The position numbers and the translations under genes were made by a program. A model generated the notes under the pieces. The model saw only the letters and a program-made list of their open reading frames with translations, searched no databases and had not been told where the DNA came from. Below, in pieces: positions 25,688 through 37,225 of a stretch of DNA of 64,000 nucleotides (position 1 is its first letter; each line of letters begins with the position of its first letter). The stretch is taken from the NCBI RefSeq assembly GCF_006385175.1, contig NZ_VFIY01000004.1, forward strand, positions 620,001 to 684,000, in the 5' to 3' direction. The stretch is from Emcibacter nanhaiensis (GTDB taxonomy: Bacteria; Pseudomonadota; Alphaproteobacteria; Sphingomonadales; Emcibacteraceae).

Positions 25688-26338
25688 ATGAGTATCGCAA
25701 AAACCATTAAAGCCGGTTTGCTGGCAGCAAGCTTCGCCCTCGCAGGAGCTTTGTCTGCCGACGCGACCGTTATCTGGGACCAGAGCCCCGATACAACGGG
25801 GGGAAGCTCAACCAGCAACACCTGGACAAACAATTCGGACGGTCAGAACTTCGCGGAAATCGTAAATTTCGGCCAAGGTGGCACACTGACCGGGATAGAT
25901 ATCTTCAGTTATGATGGGTATGGCAGCGTCGGCGGTGCGGTCACCATCAGGATCTGGGCCGATGATGGCGGGCTACCGGGCGCCCTGATCACCAGCATTG
26001 ATTCAGAGATCGCCACCATCGACACCGAAGCCACCTCCCTGGTTTCGGTTAGCCGCAAATACGCCGAATTTGACTTCGCCTTTGACGCCGGCAGCTTCTG
26101 GATCGGCATGTCCGGAACCGGCTATACATTGGGCCAGACAGGCCTGGATAACATTATCGATGACAGAATGGCACAGTTCAGTGGTGAAACCTATTCCCAC
26201 CTGGCTTCTGTTACCGGGGACATGGCCTTCCGCCTGCACGGCGAACTCGGCGATGTCGAAGTGCCGGAACCGGCCCCGCTGGCCCTGTTGGGTCTCGGCC
26301 TTATCGGCCTGGGGATTGCCCGCAAGCGCAACGCCTGA
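25688..26338 (+). CDS. PEP-CTERM sorting domain-containing protein
   Basis: A 216-residue exported protein. It has an N-terminal signal peptide (about residues 1-25, ending near LSADA), a beta-rich middle starting with a VIWDQSPDTTGGSSTSNTW stretch resembling 'choice-of-anchor' surface modules, and a C-terminal sorting tail: VPEP at 192-195, a hydrophobic helix and the basic end ARKRNA. The tail is recognised by an exosortase (EpsH/XrtA), not encoded here; cargo of this system is usually tied to exopolysaccharide. A sigma-54 promoter precedes the gene and a strong terminator follows. Confidence 0.93.
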   Translation: MSIAKTIKAGLLAASFALAGALSADATVIWDQSPDTTGGSSTSNTWTNNSDGQNFAEIVNFGQGGTLTGIDIFSYDGYGSVGGAVTIRIWADDGGLPGALITSIDSEIATIDTEATSLVSVSRKYAEFDFAFDAGSFWIGMSGTGYTLGQTGLDNIIDDRMAQFSGETYSHLASVTGDMAFRLHGELGDVEVPEPAPLALLGLGLIGLGIARKRNA

Positions 26339-27724: not shown

Positions 27725-27890
27725 AAAAAAAGGCTGCCGCCCGGAGGACGGCAGCCAGCCCTTCTACGGAGGATAGCTATTAATGTGTGGTCTAATAACT
27801 ATCTAGGGTTAGGTGTTTCCAAAAGCGCAGGCAACACGCTTCAGGTTTCACAAGATATGACCCCCGGGGAGGTAAAACCCGCTAACCCTA
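27725..27890 (-). ncRNA. Candidate small RNA, copy 1 of a two-member family
   Basis: Read on the minus strand, a hairpin (27803-27772, 11-bp stem with one U-G wobble, loop containing CCACACA) is followed by a 15-base linker starting CTCCGTAG and then a second 11-bp hairpin (27756-27732) running into seven U residues, a Rho-independent terminator. A TTTACA (27917-27912) and TTGAAT (27895-27890) with 16-base spacing could be its promoter. An 87-base 5' part is framed by TAGGGTTAG and its complement (27890-27882, 27812-27804). It may alternatively be the structured 3' end of the TonB receptor transcript. The conserved part is shared with copy 2 at 33622. Confidence 0.6.
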
Positions 27891-27930
27891 TTCAAAATTT
27901 TCTTCGGCAATTGTAAAAAACTGTGTGATT

Positions 27931-30900
27931 TCAGAAACGTGCTTCCACGCCGAAATACATATAAGGCCCCAGAACATCATAGAAATTGGGGAAAGTATTG
28001 GCCTGTTGCTGGCTCTCGCCGACTGGGGTTGGCTGATTGTTGAATAAATTATCCACACCACCACGCAATGTCACATTTTCCCCGATGTGATATTTCAAAT
28101 ACAGATCAAAATAATGTTCAGCGGAAAGCGCCGGCACCGCCAGATCCGCAGGATCAATCCCGCTTAACTGGCTACCTGTCCTGACACCACTGAGATATCG
28201 CCACCTCACGGTCAGACTCATGGGGCCAGTATTCCATGTGGTCATTTGTGTGAAGCGGAACCTAGGATGAGGATCGCCGCAATGCAGACCAAAGTAACCG
28301 GCACAATCATAGCCAACCAGTCCGTTCGCAGCCTGGAGCTTATAATCGAACACGAAAGAGCCCTGAAAATAGATATCCAGGCTGTCATTGTTGCTCATCA
28401 AACCGCCCCCCAGTTCAGTGTAAAAAAACATCTGGGCGTCGAGGCCTGAGGTTTTTGCCTTTCCCTGGTTTGTCAGTTGGGCTTCCACATAGTCTATGTT
28501 GCCACCATCCAGGCGATGGATCGCATTGCAATAGGGGTTATTGGGATCTGAACCGGAGTAGCAGAGCTCCAGAACATTGCTGGTGCCTCCGGCCAAAACA
28601 TCTATCATGTCATAGATGTTTATGTTGTAATAATCCAACGTCACCTGGAAGTTCTCAATAAAGTCCGGCTCAAACACAGCACCAAGAGTAAATGTATTTG
28701 AATGTTCCTCCTCGAGATTAGGGTTACCACCGTAAACACTTCTAACCTGACTGCTCACCGGCGAAAATTTTCCGGTCTGACCAATCGGTACCCCCGTTGT
28801 TTCGCACAAGGTATCTATGTCGCCGTAGACATCGTAAAAACTATCCGCACAGGGGTCAGATGCGGGAAGGAAATTTTCGTAAGTTGCCGTGTAAAGTTCA
28901 CTTATACTGGGAGCCCTGACAGCACGCTGAAACTGGCCCCGGAAACTCAAGTTCTTTGTTGGCTTCCAGAATATCCCCCCGGCAAAAGAGACCGCGCTGC
29001 TCGAGGTACTAAACTCGGAAAAACGAAAGGCGCCCGATACCTCCAGCTGTTGTCCGCCCGACATCTGCGCCAGCAAAGGAATGCTGAATTCGCCGAACAG
29101 GCTGACCACATCATAGGCGCCGCTAAGATTCTGGCTCTGATTAAATCCCAGTGAATCATCACTGGACAAATAATCATCTATCGATCGACGGAGGGATTCC
29201 CTGCGCCAGTCCACACCAATCAGATATTTCATATCCTCCAGGGGGGCTTTGGCAATGTTGCCAGATAACGCCAGGCTTGCGACATGGCGCTGATATTTTG
29301 TCTTGCTTAGCACATCAATGCTTATGTAATCCGCAGCTGCACCTGTTACATTTCCCTGGCCAAAAATATTGACCGGAAAGCACCCGTCATCCCGTGCTGC
29401 CTCATCAGCACATACATATTTCCCATTTACCATCTCGATATCCAGGGCATGTCTTAACCGAGTTGAGGAAATGTCATTCACGCTGAATTCATTGTGGCTG
29501 TAATTGCTGAAATTATAGTGGGCCAACAGGCTCAAATGATCGGAAAATTTTATATCCGTCCCCAATACAACATTAAACGTATCCCTGTCGTTTTCCTGTC
29601 GCCGGGGTCCTATTTCAACAAACCTGCGCGCCAGAAAAGGAATTAAGGCCTTGCCGTCACTCTCAAAAAGCAGCCTGCCGGAAGTCATTTCGTCAGGTAC
29701 GCCCACAACGGCGACCGGTGTCCCATCGTCATTCCAAAGCGGTTCCGAGCCGACTACATTGCCCTGACCATCGTAGACCAGAGACAAGGCCTGTCGAGCC
29801 TGTACTGGGTTACCATTCAGGTCAAACAACAGGGCGCCCATACTGTCGCGTGCCTGCATCAGAGTCCCGGTTCCATACCAGTCGATTCCCTGCAACGCCA
29901 GTTTTGCCTGGTCGGACAGGAAAGGATTTTCAACAGGGACAGTCACATCGCCGATAAATGCCGGCGTCGGGGCCAGTTCAGTATCCACCCTGTTGTGAAC
30001 ATAAATCGACTGCAGGTACACATTGGCTGACTCTGACAGATCATAATCGCCGCCAAAGGTAATCATCCACCTTTTTTGGGGTACCTGGAGGTAGTTGGCC
30101 GGTGCATAGTTATAGGCATCCGTCAGGCGGTCATAAGTCTTGATTTCTCCTTCAGGCGTAAAAGTAGAGAGCCCCGGATACGGTCCCGATCCTGACACAT
30201 CATAAATAAGAGTGTCCGGGATCGCCGAACTCCCGGACCGAACCAGTCCCGGGATTCCCCCTTCGTCCGGCGACAGGGGAATTCCAAAACCATATTTCTC
30301 ATCCACGCTACCCGGTTCAATATAATAATCCGTCAAGGCGAAGGTGGAAAAATCGCGGCTCTCCTGCAACAGGGATTCCCGCTCGAGATAACCGATATGG
30401 AAGAAAAAATTCCCCCTGCCCTGTCCAATCTCCTGACCATAGACCATATCCCAGTTTGCCTTGTCTGCATCCCCTTGACTGGAGACTTTCTGCTGGGCGT
30501 CAACCAGAAATCCGTTGAAATCATCTTTCAGGACAAAATTTACCACGCCGGATATGGCATCGGATCCATAGACCGCCGACGTCCCGCCGGTAACGATTTC
30601 AACCTGCTCCAGAAGAATAGTGGGTATGGCGTTGAGATCGACTACGCCATCTTCGTCGCTGGGCGCATAGCGCCGGCCGTTGACCAGAACCAGTGTTCTC
30701 ACCGGTCCAAGCCCCCTCAGGTCTACAGTGACAGTCCCGTTGCCGGGATTATTGGAATGTGCCGTCAGTCCCGGAATGACCTGGGGATAGCGGTTCAGCG
30801 CATTTTCCACATTCACCGTTCCGGTAGTGGAAATCATTTCCGCATCGACGATTGAGAGAGGATTAGCCGTGGTCAGTTCCCGTCGCTTTAGCTGCGACCC

Positions 30901-31377
30901 GGTGATGACCAGCTCTTCCAGGAGTTTCTTTTCAACTGCGGGCTTCTGTTCGTCCAGGGAACGGACCATACTATCAAGGGCGATATTCCTTGCTTCCCGG
31001 CGCCGCTCACGCTCCAGCTTTTCCTGTTTCAAGCGCAATTCACGGGCACGCTCCTTGTCGAAACGAATAATGATCGTGTTGTCCGGATTTCGGTAGGCCC
31101 TGAATGGGGTATCCTGAAGCAAGATAGAGAGAGCTTCATTTGTGGCAAGCTTTCCGCTTAGCGGCGCCGCTGTGTAGTTGCTGGTTATATCATAGGGAAA
31201 GATGATCTGTTCCCCGGTCACCCGGGCAAAAATCAACAAAGCTTCCGCCAGGCTGTTCTGTTTGATCGAAAAATCAACCAGCTGCCTGTTCTCCTCTGCA
31301 GCGTAAACAGGCGGCACAAGAGATACCGAATACATTGACACCATCGTCAATGTGCCCATAAGCCGACCGGCGCGCAC
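27931..31377 (-). CDS. TonB-dependent receptor with N-terminal STN signalling domain
   Basis: A 1148-residue outer-membrane transporter. After a signal peptide (cleaved near PPVYAAEE) comes an STN secretin/TonB short domain (about 30-110: LVDFSIKQNSLAEALLIFA ... NTIIIRF), a charged helical linker of about 45 residues, the plug with TGSQLKRRELTTANPL and VTGGTSAVYGSDAISGVVNFVL, and a long barrel ending in a terminal phenylalanine. The STN domain signals substrate binding to FecR. The GTG at 31377 is chosen because AGGAG lies 7 bases upstream; the TTG further up lacks one. The ligand is unknown. Confidence 0.93.
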   Translation of the reverse strand: MRAGRLMGTLTMVSMYSVSLVPPVYAAEENRQLVDFSIKQNSLAEALLIFARVTGEQIIFPYDITSNYTAAPLSGKLATNEALSILLQDTPFRAYRNPDNTIIIRFDKERARELRLKQEKLERERRREARNIALDSMVRSLDEQKPAVEKKLLEELVITGSQLKRRELTTANPLSIVDAEMISTTGTVNVENALNRYPQVIPGLTAHSNNPGNGTVTVDLRGLGPVRTLVLVNGRRYAPSDEDGVVDLNAIPTILLEQVEIVTGGTSAVYGSDAISGVVNFVLKDDFNGFLVDAQQKVSSQGDADKANWDMVYGQEIGQGRGNFFFHIGYLERESLLQESRDFSTFALTDYYIEPGSVDEKYGFGIPLSPDEGGIPGLVRSGSSAIPDTLIYDVSGSGPYPGLSTFTPEGEIKTYDRLTDAYNYAPANYLQVPQKRWMITFGGDYDLSESANVYLQSIYVHNRVDTELAPTPAFIGDVTVPVENPFLSDQAKLALQGIDWYGTGTLMQARDSMGALLFDLNGNPVQARQALSLVYDGQGNVVGSEPLWNDDGTPVAVVGVPDEMTSGRLLFESDGKALIPFLARRFVEIGPRRQENDRDTFNVVLGTDIKFSDHLSLLAHYNFSNYSHNEFSVNDISSTRLRHALDIEMVNGKYVCADEAARDDGCFPVNIFGQGNVTGAAADYISIDVLSKTKYQRHVASLALSGNIAKAPLEDMKYLIGVDWRRESLRRSIDDYLSSDDSLGFNQSQNLSGAYDVVSLFGEFSIPLLAQMSGGQQLEVSGAFRFSEFSTSSSAVSFAGGIFWKPTKNLSFRGQFQRAVRAPSISELYTATYENFLPASDPCADSFYDVYGDIDTLCETTGVPIGQTGKFSPVSSQVRSVYGGNPNLEEEHSNTFTLGAVFEPDFIENFQVTLDYYNINIYDMIDVLAGGTSNVLELCYSGSDPNNPYCNAIHRLDGGNIDYVEAQLTNQGKAKTSGLDAQMFFYTELGGGLMSNNDSLDIYFQGSFVFDYKLQAANGLVGYDCAGYFGLHCGDPHPRFRFTQMTTWNTGPMSLTVRWRYLSGVRTGSQLSGIDPADLAVPALSAEHYFDLYLKYHIGENVTLRGGVDNLFNNQPTPVGESQQQANTFPNFYDVLGPYMYFGVEARF

Positions 31378-31460
31378 GAATTTACTCCTGCCCAACTGCA
31401 AACACCTTCCCCTAGATATAAATCCCCCAATCAGACATGAACCGGCTATCGGTTGACCGG

Positions 31461-32582
31461 TCAGGCCTCCGTTATAAAAGTCACAAACGGCGTCACCTTT
31501 ATTACCTTGACTGGGAAGGCATCTTCAACTGCATTAATAAAGGCGTCAAAATCATTGATATCAAAAGCACCCCCCATCTTCATTTGTTTTATCGCCTGGT
31601 CTGTTATGATGATTTTCTTATTTGTATAGCGCGCCATTTCATTGACGATCTCCGACAAAGGCTGCCCCCGGAACAATATCTTCCCCTGTCGGGAGAAAAC
31701 CAAACGTTCAAGATCAAGCTGGCTGGCCTGTCCAACGGGTCCCAGATGTCCGTCGTAGGCAAACATTTTTTGTCCGCCGGTGACAAAATAAGAGCTATCT
31801 TCACCCCCCTCTGCCGTCTGTTTAATCTCCTCCAGATCCGATTCCTGATGCACTGCCACGGTGCCTTCAATGACAATCACCTCCACCTTGTCTTCGCGGT
31901 CATAAACACTGAAGGACGTGCCCACAGCCTGGGCTGTTCCATATTCTGTCTCGACGACAAACGGGCGGCTGGGGTCCTTTTCCACATCAAAGATTGCCTC
32001 GCCCCTGAGCAGCACCACCTTGCGCAGATTTTTGGTATATTCCTCCCGCAACAGACTGTCCGTGTTCATAAATACATGGGATCCGTCGGCAAGGATAATC
32101 CGGCTCTGCTCTCCTACATCCGTCCTGTAGGTGCCTTCAGGCAGATAACGGCTGTAACCGTAATAGGACATCGCCACCGTCACCAACACCGCAAGCGTCG
32201 CCGCGATCCGGGCGAAGGTCCGTGAAAATGCCCACCCATTGTTTTTTGTCGCTGCGGCAGTCGACAGGTAAGTTATATTTGTCCCGTCTGCATCACTGCT
32301 GTCTCTGCCGGAAAGAGATATATCCCCATCACTTTCCTCTGTTTTGAGTGCGCTGAAGTCAAGACCATCCATATCGGCAAGCGATAAGTCGTCCTCCAGC
32401 ATGTCTTCCACATCGAGCCAGAAAGAAGCAACCTGCTCATAGACTTCCCGATGGCGTTCATCCTGTTCATACCAAGTCAGGAATTGGTCGCGGAGTTCGT
32501 CGTTGCCGGCGTCCTCCTGCAGGCGCATAAACCACTGCCGCGCCTGATCTTCCAGATCCTGGTGTTTTTCTTTTTCGTCCAC
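31461..32582 (-). CDS. FecR family anti-sigma/signal transducer
   Basis: A 373-residue inner-membrane protein. It has an N-terminal DUF4880 cytoplasmic domain (about 8-60, ARQWFMRLQEDAGNDEL ... WYEQDERHREVYEQ), a long acidic linker, one transmembrane helix at 124-144, a periplasmic FecR domain (about 155-270, with ILADGSHVFMNTDS) and a C-terminal DUF4974-like domain (FRGQPLSEIVNEMARYTNKKI). It would receive the signal from the STN domain of the receptor and control the ECF sigma factor. It lies 6 bases after the sigma gene and 83 bases before the receptor gene. Confidence 0.92.
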   Translation of the reverse strand: MDEKEKHQDLEDQARQWFMRLQEDAGNDELRDQFLTWYEQDERHREVYEQVASFWLDVEDMLEDDLSLADMDGLDFSALKTEESDGDISLSGRDSSDADGTNITYLSTAAATKNNGWAFSRTFARIAATLAVLVTVAMSYYGYSRYLPEGTYRTDVGEQSRIILADGSHVFMNTDSLLREEYTKNLRKVVLLRGEAIFDVEKDPSRPFVVETEYGTAQAVGTSFSVYDREDKVEVIVIEGTVAVHQESDLEEIKQTAEGGEDSSYFVTGGQKMFAYDGHLGPVGQASQLDLERLVFSRQGKILFRGQPLSEIVNEMARYTNKKIIITDQAIKQMKMGGAFDINDFDAFINAVEDAFPVKVIKVTPFVTFITEA

Positions 32583-32588
32583 AATAAC

Positions 32589-33185
32589 TCACCGTATCAT
32601 TCTTATTTTCGCTGCATTATCCCCGCTCACACCCTTGCCATCTCTTTTTTCCTGCCGGATGGCTGTCTGGGGCCTCTGGAGCAGCCTCATATAATGCTGG
32701 CAATCCCGCATTCCTTTCAGCACGTGCTTTTCAGCAGTACTGATCGAAATGTCGAGTTTTTCCGCTATTTCCTTGTAGCTATGTTTGTTTATTACTCTCA
32801 GTGTAAAAGCCCTGCGGCATTTGGGAGGCAACTGATCGACAGCCTCGCAGAACAACTGATATTCCTGTTTGGAATTCAGGGCCTGATCAGCCAGGGGTTC
32901 AGCGCATTTGACGTCCAGTAGCTCGCCGTCCACGGAATTCTCGAACTTGACGATTTTCCGCCGCCGCAGCGTTTTCATGGCCAGGTTATGGGCAATCCTG
33001 TACAGGAAAGCTTTGGGCGACTGTATCTCCTCCGGGTTCTTCGCATTATGGAACCGAAGGAAGGCTTCCTGGGCGACTTCCTCGGCTTCATTTTCAGAAC
33101 GCAGAAATTTATACACATACCCCTTCAGGTTTTGGCTATGTTCTCTGTAGAGCTCCTCCAGAACTGTATTCCGGTTATTTTCCAT
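32589..33185 (-). CDS. ECF-family RNA polymerase sigma factor (FecI-like)
   Basis: A 198-residue sigma-70 family protein with region 2 (LYREHSQNLKGYVYKFLRSENEAEEVAQEAFLR-like) and region 4 (LPPKCRRAFTLRVINKHSYKEIAEKLDISISTAEKHV-like helix-turn-helix). With the FecR and STN-TonB genes immediately downstream it forms a complete cell-surface signalling cassette. A C-terminal extension of about 25 basic residues is present. The start is the ATG at 33185 behind AAAGG. Its own promoter must lie in the AT-rich region above 33186. Confidence 0.93.
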   Translation of the reverse strand: MENNRNTVLEELYREHSQNLKGYVYKFLRSENEAEEVAQEAFLRFHNAKNPEEIQSPKAFLYRIAHNLAMKTLRRRKIVKFENSVDGELLDVKCAEPLADQALNSKQEYQLFCEAVDQLPPKCRRAFTLRVINKHSYKEIAEKLDISISTAEKHVLKGMRDCQHYMRLLQRPQTAIRQEKRDGKGVSGDNAAKIRMIR

Positions 33186-33449
33186 AACCTTTGTCCATTT
33201 CCGGGAAGATATTTTCTGCCGGATTATACTCCGTTCCTTTCACTAGCTTCCTCCGCATGAGCTTTTATTATATTGTGGAATTTATATCCTAGCCCCATTC
33301 AAACCACCCACACATTATCCTGAGACCAAGCGAAAAAAAATTGCGACGGAAGGCCTCAACCAGCACTCAAACCGCAGAAATTCCACAGCCTGATCGTAAT
33401 TTTAAAAAAAATAAAAGTCTATTAGCGGGTTTATCGCTGTCAGGAGTCT
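33186..33449. other. AT-rich non-coding region upstream of the ECF sigma gene
   Basis: No gene is visible. The stretch contains a 10-base inverted repeat TGTGGAATTT/AAATTCCACA (about 33275 and 33379), roughly 94 bases apart, which may be chance. It should hold the promoter of the sigma-FecR-receptor operon. Confidence 0.4.
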
Positions 33450-33617
33450 ATGTTTCTTATGGACGGTCGGAAAAGTAACAATAGATCACAAAATTTTGTA
33501 TCTGAACGATATATCGAGAGAGCAGAATATTTCGATTTTCATGCCCACCGCACAGTCCGCCCGCAAAAGCAGAATAATTGCTGGCGGATTACAGAAACGA
33601 CTCACCCTGAAAAATAA
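33450..33617 (+). CDS. Possible 55-residue small protein
   Basis: An ATG preceded by AGGAG (only 3 bases away, tighter than usual; the in-frame ATG at 33459 would be an alternative) opens 55 codons rich in Arg, Asn and Gln, with RAEYFDFHAHRTVRPQKQ in the middle, ending just before the small-RNA-like element copy 2 (which is on the other strand). No family is recognised, and the low GC makes a chance reading frame quite possible. Confidence 0.25.
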   Translation: MFLMDGRKSNNRSQNFVSERYIERAEYFDFHAHRTVRPQKQNNCWRITETTHPEK

Positions 33618-33621
33618 TATT

Positions 33622-33745
33622 AAAAAAGGCTGCAGCTTTTTCAAGCTGCAGCCAGTTCTCCTACGGAGGATAGCTATTTCTGTGTGGGAAAATAGCTATC
33701 AAAGGAACTTGATGTGGTAATACCCCCGTACCGCGTCGGTAAATC
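33622..33745 (-). ncRNA. Candidate small RNA, copy 2 of a two-member family
   Basis: On the minus strand, a perfect 11-bp hairpin (33700-33669, 10-base loop with CCACACA) is followed by a 15-base linker beginning CTCCGTAG and a perfect 11-bp hairpin (33653-33628) capped by a GAAA tetraloop and followed by six U residues. Layout, spacing, loop and linker match copy 1 at 27725, while the terminator stem has a different sequence with pairing kept. The part further 5' is not conserved with copy 1; the 5' end given here (about 33745) is a guess. No open reading frame explains the conservation. Confidence 0.6.
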
Positions 33746-35133: not shown

Positions 35134-37056
<1,923 letters not shown>

Positions 37057-37057
37057 T

Positions 37058-37141
37058 CATTCCTTCCCTCCGCCGGTATCACCCGGATCAGGTTCTAAGG
37101 GTCGGCACATTCCGCCTCTCAGCCGCATCGGCACCCCTAGG
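37058..37141 (-). promoter_or_regulatory. TPP riboswitch (THI element) of thiC
   Basis: On the minus strand the aptamer reads GGGGTGCC, then GCTGAGA, then GAACCTGATCCGGGT, ending ACCGGCGGAGGGAA, the hallmark sequence blocks of the thiamine-pyrophosphate aptamer. P1 can form between ATTCCT and AGGAAT at its ends. A downstream TTTCCTCC (about 37038-37031) can pair with the GGAGGGAA at the aptamer's 3' end, which may be the switching helix. Confidence 0.95.
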
Positions 37142-37225
37142 AATTCTCGTCCCCATTAGATATTGAAAGCGGCGGGTAATTCAAGAAAATATTGCAAATA
37201 TCCTTAAACAGTCTATCTAGGGCCC

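Follow-up and report, generated by a model that had tools for sequence, protein, structure and literature searches.

Paralogous small RNAs as a predicted noncoding arm of a FecI/FecR/TonB regulon in Emcibacter nanhaiensis

Introduction

FecI/FecR/TonB cassettes are widespread nutrient-sensing systems. As in FecI/FecR/FecA, an extracytoplasmic function (ECF) sigma factor, a FecR protein and a TonB receptor are joined in one cassette, and a promoter of the sigma factor stands upstream of the receptors. In a 64,000-nucleotide stretch of Emcibacter nanhaiensis (contig NZ_VFIY01000004.1, positions 620,001 to 684,000; hereafter the window), a cassette of this kind is flanked by two copies of a structured RNA element on the minus strand. 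Judged from sequence comparison, we consider it likely, with a probability of about 0.7, that the two are paralogous, independently transcribed, base-pairing small RNAs (sRNAs) forming the noncoding arm of the regulon, through sigma-driven feedback and cross-repression of a receptor.

No sRNA brake in FecI/FecR-type signalling was found described in the searchable literature. A 2022 review of FecI-type signalling (PMC9249621) describes the transcription of fecIR and hasI as free of autoregulation and does not bring up any sRNA, and the sRNA feedback loop predicted here differs from FecI/FecR/FecA as reviewed there. The logic itself has been described in E. coli, in which the sigmaE-made sRNAs RybB, MicA and MicL repress mRNAs of outer-membrane proteins and contribute to negative feedback on the sigma response (PMC12249550). 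The route from an ECF sigma factor through an sRNA to an outer-membrane protein mRNA, with feedback, is shared as a prediction in Emcibacter, whereas the driver would be a FecI/FecR-type rather than an envelope-stress sigma factor, pairing is predicted with the leader of the sigma factor's own mRNA, and the sequences are unrelated.

Two further systems resemble parts of the locus. The alphaR8 sRNAs (MmgR in S. meliloti, SisA-D in Caulobacter; RF00519, suhB/mmgR) share with the Emcibacter elements a 5' hairpin, an exposed CCUCC anti-Shine-Dalgarno core, a terminator and paralogous siblings, and SisA pairs with the mRNA of a TonB receptor ahead of its start codon and so represses it (PMC12559287). 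Unlike alphaR8, the Emcibacter elements have the core CCUCCGUAG, a strong hairpin of 11 bp whose CACACA loop is conserved, an ECF-type promoter and a location at an ECF/FecR/TonB cassette. The sponge CrfA of Caulobacter is complementary to the seeds of anti-Shine-Dalgarno sRNAs, as an antisense RNA predicted opposite one of the two copies would be; CrfA is a separate trans-encoded RNA, in contrast to the full antisense transcript predicted here.

Two structured elements on the minus strand

Re-reading of the sequence placed both elements at the coordinates and on the strand given in a preliminary description of the window:

27725..27803, minus strand: core of sRNA copy 1, a hairpin with loop GACCACACAU, seed linker CUCCGUAGAAGGGCU and Rho-independent terminator
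33622..33700, minus strand: core of sRNA copy 2, with loop UCCCACACAG, linker CUCCGUAGGAGAACU and terminator

The common plan proposed there also held in both copies, comprising an 11-bp stem, a 10-nucleotide (nt) loop with CCACACA, an unpaired CUCCGUAG linker of 15 nt, an 11-bp terminator stem and a U-run. Copy 1 reads in order GATAGTTATTA-GACCACACAT-TAATAGCTATC-CTCCGTAGAAGGGCT-GGCTGCCGTCC-TCC-GGGCGGCAGCC-T7 and copy 2 GATAGCTATTT-TCCCACACAG-AAATAGCTATC-CTCCGTAGGAGAACT-GGCTGCAGCTT-GAAA-AAGCTGCAGCC-T6, the linker of the latter being able to form a 4-bp CUCC/GGAG mini-hairpin.

Folding of the minus strand gave -40.4 kcal/mol for copy 1 (z -4.3 against dinucleotide shuffles) and -39.3 kcal/mol for copy 2 (z -6.8). 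The plus strand folded more weakly for copy 1 (z -2.5) and almost equally for copy 2 (z -5.7), and the difference between the strands is therefore real but only modest. Both wobble pairs that the preliminary description had cited in copy 1 exist, the first at 27798.27777, one base away from the position 27799 originally assigned.

Conservation and covariation in Emcibacteraceae

A pattern search followed by the covariance models R1 and R2 was applied to 32 Emcibacteraceae genomes, which include G001, G002, G008, G030 and G037, the window genome being G000. Nine members were recovered in six of the 32, two each in G000, G002 and G001 and one each in G008, G030 (69% complete) and G037 (64% complete). 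The R1 scores of the nine ranged from 51 to 101 bits; copies 1 and 2, at 93.2 and 98.0 bits, both belonged to the R1 training set, and the three members outside it scored 67, 62 and 51 bits.

Of the pair cells in the alignment of all nine, 95.7% were paired, and 10 of 21 pairs had two-sided changes, values that none of 500 shuffles reached; the covariation score was 0.374 versus 0.131 +/- 0.029 in the shuffles (again 0/500). Fitting of the alignment to the model favours structure, and slid controls collapse. The 5' hairpin covaries at seven of its 11 pairs. Outside the stems, the loop CACACA and the post-hairpin CCUCCG(U/C)AG are invariant or nearly so. Selection on RNA structure, which had been suggested from the two copies, could not be settled by two copies alone, and it is the nine homologues that supply the proof.

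The family appears confined in range. The covariance-model search of alphaproteobacterial genomes that had been proposed as a check yielded the nine members, with stems conserved and all within Emcibacteraceae; beyond that family, samples of 298 genomes of the order and 385 of the class contained no convincing member. Weak covariance matches outside the family (at most 37 bits) were on inspection generic terminators, except for L183, a true alphaR8 RNA, and a second G001 match of the first pattern (L009) was a chance hit without hairpin. A scan of 84,980 species returned three family contigs, two of them from Emcibacter, together with six chance matches. Recurrence in six genomes, differing gene contexts and a promoter of their own for the copy-1-type elements all support the initial model of two paralogous small RNAs.

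No Rfam family was detected at either locus at gathering or relaxed thresholds. The elements do have the upstream hairpin and downstream Rho-independent terminator that RF00519 calls for. For the alphaR8 mode of action, with Hfq and close to the ribosome-binding site of a TonB-receptor mRNA, the counterpart here is a predicted pairing. Membership was nevertheless rejected, both by score, since the best of the nine reached 25.4 bits against a 41-bit gathering cut-off and the others were unlisted at E up to 10, and by core, since the single-stranded 10-mer UUUCCUCCCU is required and nine of nine carry CCUCCG(U/C)AG. The earlier remark that no known family fits is thus right as to membership, while it passes over the resemblance in architecture to alphaR8/MmgR/SisA. 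Each of the four near-complete sRNA genomes has a separate RF00519 copy above the cut-off (57.2 bits in G000). The nine elements are, on the strength of these comparisons, a new RNA family, whose descent from alphaR8 is possible. Two further CCTCCCTAG-terminator elements in G000 (L038 on contig 5, L185 on contig 4) resemble alphaR8 RNAs with scores that fall short of the Rfam cut-off, and several diverged paralogues of alphaR8 type may exist in the bacterial family.

Association with the ECF/FecR/TonB cassette

The cassette between the two copies consists of three adjacent genes:

32589..33185, minus strand: ECF sigma factor (Sigma70_r2, Sigma70_r4_2)
31461..32582, minus strand: FecR-type anti-sigma factor
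27931..31401, minus strand: TonB-dependent receptor with STN, plug and barrel, start codon uncertain

The same gene order was found in G002 and G008 and, by layout of the open reading frames (ORFs), in G001. In both G000 and G002, the transcribed strand carries copy 2, ECF sigma, FecR, TonB receptor(s), copy 1 and argG in succession. In G008 and G001 the orthologous cassette has one element at its far end, and the elements of G030 and G037 lie outside any ECF/FecR/TonB cassette in the stretch read, the neighbours across genomes varying among argG, an acyltransferase gene, a thiamine pyrophosphate (TPP)-enzyme gene and a Mg-chelatase gene. An orthologue of the ECF sigma factor occurs in four of the 32 family genomes (G000, G001, G002 and G008; 61-68% identity), all four with the sRNA; the sRNA genomes in which none was found are the incomplete G030 and G037.

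ECF-type promoters

A 29-nt motif, approximately GYGGGTTTT-N10-AGGGTCWTAG, was found upstream of every copy-1-type element and also of TonB-receptor genes of the cassettes, and is probably the promoter read by the cassette's ECF sigma factor. With one genome left out at a time, so that the matrices were trained on other genomes only, both strands of the window were scanned and two sites stood out:

27854..27882, minus strand: ECF-type promoter of copy 1, GCGGGTTTTACCTCCCCGGGGGTCATATC, 20.9 bits, best site in 64 kb
33425..33453, plus strand: divergent ECF-type promoter, 16.1 bits, second-best site in 64 kb

The next-best (non-)site reached 10.6 bits. From the first promoter, copy 1 would be transcribed as an RNA of ~120-130 nt with ~45 nt 5' of the hairpin. 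In G000, G001, G008 and G030 the highest-scoring site of the locus is that of the copy-1-type element, and in G002 this element has one of the three highest; the G037 promoter is weak when left out (rank 2, 10.5 bits). Sites unused in training were likewise recovered upstream of TonB-receptor genes, with 17.2 bits in G001, 23.8 in G008 and 19.8 in G000 (contig C16), against a background mostly below 13.5. The sRNA promoter is set off from the upstream gene by a terminator-like hairpin in G002, G001 and G037, indicating that the sRNA is a separate transcription unit in these genomes. Both sRNAs are presumably expressed, and we infer a role for copy 2 under a promoter that differs from that of copy 1.

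Transcription from the plus-strand site at 33425 would run away from the ECF gene and, in G000 as in G002, antisense to copy 2. With respect to the ECF gene, G002 and G008 have a divergent promoter at the equivalent position, and G001 has a weaker one. On the opposite side of 33425-33453 there is a conserved TAATAGACTTTTA block, possibly the promoter of the ECF gene itself, which would make autoregulation by occlusion possible.

Predicted mechanism and targets

In the proposed mechanism, the active ECF sigma factor would transcribe copy 1 from its own ECF-type promoter, alongside the TonB-receptor genes with the same promoter, and the unpaired linker UCCUCCGUAG with flanking bases, possibly together with the CCACACA loop, would pair with mRNAs. 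The first target would lie in the leader of the mRNA for the ECF sigma factor, where a short upstream ORF begins; this ORF adjoins or overlaps the ECF start in G000 and G008. Pairing with the leader would lower sigma synthesis and give negative feedback. The second would be the ribosome-binding site (RBS) of a distant TonB receptor on C16, which pairing would block, so that a competing receptor would be repressed. Repression is the presumed outcome of pairing in both cases. The features concerned are:

33249..33257, minus strand: predicted sRNA target site UGCGGAGGA, pairing with UCCUCCGUA over 9 bp with one G.U
33175..33258, minus strand: leader ORF of 27 codons, overlapping the ECF start (MRRKLVKGTEYNPAENIFPEMDKGYGK)
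33307..33314, minus strand: UGUGUGGG, part of the ECF leader, which could pair with the copy-2 loop CCCACACA; a weak match, since it is not conserved in other ECF leaders
G000 C16:20013-22916: target TonB receptor, MKSDFSSRLKYGVSA..., with predicted pairing at the RBS

A complement of the seed, found independently of the receptor site, lies 65-84 nt 5' of the ECF start in all four genomes with the orthologue (UGCGGAGGA in G000, UUUUUACGGAGGA in G002, UGUCUACGGAG in G008 and GUCUAUCUGCGGAGGA in G001), and linker and ECF leader pair over 9-16 bp across the four. In G000, G008 and G001 the site falls within the opening codons of a short ORF overlapping, abutting or closely preceding the ECF start; the leader ORFs of G008 and G001 are similar and end before it. 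The leader ORFs of these three genomes suggest translational coupling with the ECF sigma gene.

For the receptor, a search for TACGGAGG before ATG gave one gene type shared by the four near-complete genomes that have the sRNA. It encodes a TonB receptor beginning MKSDF(S/T)SRLKYGVSA... and has the RBS CUUCUACGGAGGA or CUUCCUACGGAGGA. Pairing of the linker with this RBS extends over 10-13 bp, copy 1 reaching 13 bp in G000 and G002, and in these two genomes the loop region of a hairpin in the TonB leader also matches 8 nt of the copy-1 loop (AUGUGUGG with CCACACAU; UGUGUGGA with UCCACACA). In G001 the two sRNAs differ in this respect: the linker AUAGAC of one lengthens the pairing with the ECF leader to 16 bp, and the other (GUAGAAGU) pairs over 13 bp with the TonB RBS.

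When the genes in the stretches analysed were ranked as targets, the ECF leader and the TonB RBS took ranks 1 and 2 for six of seven linkers, the G000 ECF-leader site being second-best of 57 genes for both copies; for the G008 linker the ECF leader ranked first, the TonB gene lying outside the loci ranked. At most 9 of 500 shuffled leaders paired equally well.

Beside these results, conservation and structure (CTGTTTTT/AAAAACAG and ATTGTG/CACAAT repeats) were seen in the leaders of the MKSD TonB receptors (L106-L116), whose CTACGGAGG RBS is invariant, and this holds in the absence of the sRNA as well. A second TonB-receptor-like gene, recognised from its N-terminus alone, adjoins the predicted target receptor on G000 contig 16 (L177:1-2230, minus strand); 70 bp upstream of it lies an ECF-type promoter that scores 19.8 bits with the left-out matrix.

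Weighing the interpretations

The computed basis for an sRNA arm of the regulon is a conserved, covarying RNA, a shared rare promoter motif, co-occurrence with the ECF sigma factor and orthologous complementary sites. Several points count against it. Copy 2 has no ECF promoter on its own strand, and the strict promoter pattern also matches some genomes without the ECF orthologue; genome-wide counts with that pattern were too low to prove regulon specificity. The ECF site comes without an sRNA-free control, as the ECF orthologue occurs only alongside the sRNA, and G001 and G008 lack the kissing-loop match. The target ranking covers 18-57 genes in the sequence stretches analysed rather than whole genomes, and the TonB rank is not independent, because that target had been found through the seed-complement search. 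The linker core is an anti-Shine-Dalgarno sequence, and part of any RBS match is therefore expected and generic. Finally, the TonB RBS CUACGGAGG is identical in 13 of 13 orthologues, nine of them from genomes without a detectable sRNA, so that the sRNA alone cannot explain its conservation, which must have another cause or an undetected partner. In receptor-bearing relatives without a model match, no other sRNA with the same seed was found, the pattern mainly returning the antisense of the receptor leader.

A sponge may be added to the sRNA arm rather than set against it: copy 2 would be controlled by, or act with, an antisense RNA from 33425-33453 (plus strand), which would serve as a sponge for both sRNAs in the manner of CrfA. 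This addition is possible if somewhat doubtful. The promoter site opposite copy 2 is conserved in G000 and G002, and the antisense strand mimics the target sites, carrying CUACGGAGG and UGUGUGGG; the divergent promoter, however, also occurs in G008 and weakly in G001, both of which lack copy 2, and may thus have a different role, for instance occlusion of the ECF promoter. The most elaborate scheme, in which a FecI-type sigma factor drives sRNAs that pair with its own leader ORF and with a rival receptor mRNA by RBS plus kissing loop, the paralogues split these targets (as the 16-bp ECF and 13-bp receptor pairings of G001 would have it) and an ECF-driven antisense RNA opposite copy 2 is the sponge, is speculative and rather unlikely to hold in full.

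The elements might instead act mainly as generic anti-Shine-Dalgarno sRNAs of the alphaR8/MmgR/SisA kind that act on many TonB-receptor mRNAs, the ECF-leader match being incidental. Their plan of hairpin, exposed CCUCC core and terminator is that of SisA-D, repressors of a TonB receptor at its RBS (PMC12559287), and one member reaches the 25.4 bits with RF00519 noted above. We regard this as improbable, given that the core is CCUCCGUAG and not UUUCCUCCCU, that pairing with the ECF leader extends to as much as 16 bp in G001, and that genome-wide TACGGAGG precedes an ATG at few sites, without a clear excess over the control, so that a broad regulon is not supported.

That the elements are mere terminators with an accessory stem, at the 3' ends of the TonB operon and of an upstream gene, is far-fetched: copy 1 does follow the TonB receptor gene closely, and its own 3' end is a strong terminator, but the linker CUCCGUAG and the loop CACACA hardly vary, covariation is seen in the 5' hairpin, a promoter of its own stands between gene and element, with a separate terminator-like hairpin upstream of it in G002, G001 and G037, and gene contexts differ among genomes.

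Other features of the window

37048-37148, minus strand: TPP riboswitch (RF00059, 80 bits), upstream of thiC (35134-36999, minus strand)
25688-26338, plus strand: protein with a PEP-CTERM motif

Implications

The feedback sRNA pair proposed here is a new variant of a known regulatory logic. An sRNA arm of the FecI/FecR/TonB regulon would explain limits on a strong receptor response as well as the choice among many TonB receptors, and the locus would be a small and testable example of paralogous sRNAs in which variation of the linkers follows different targets.

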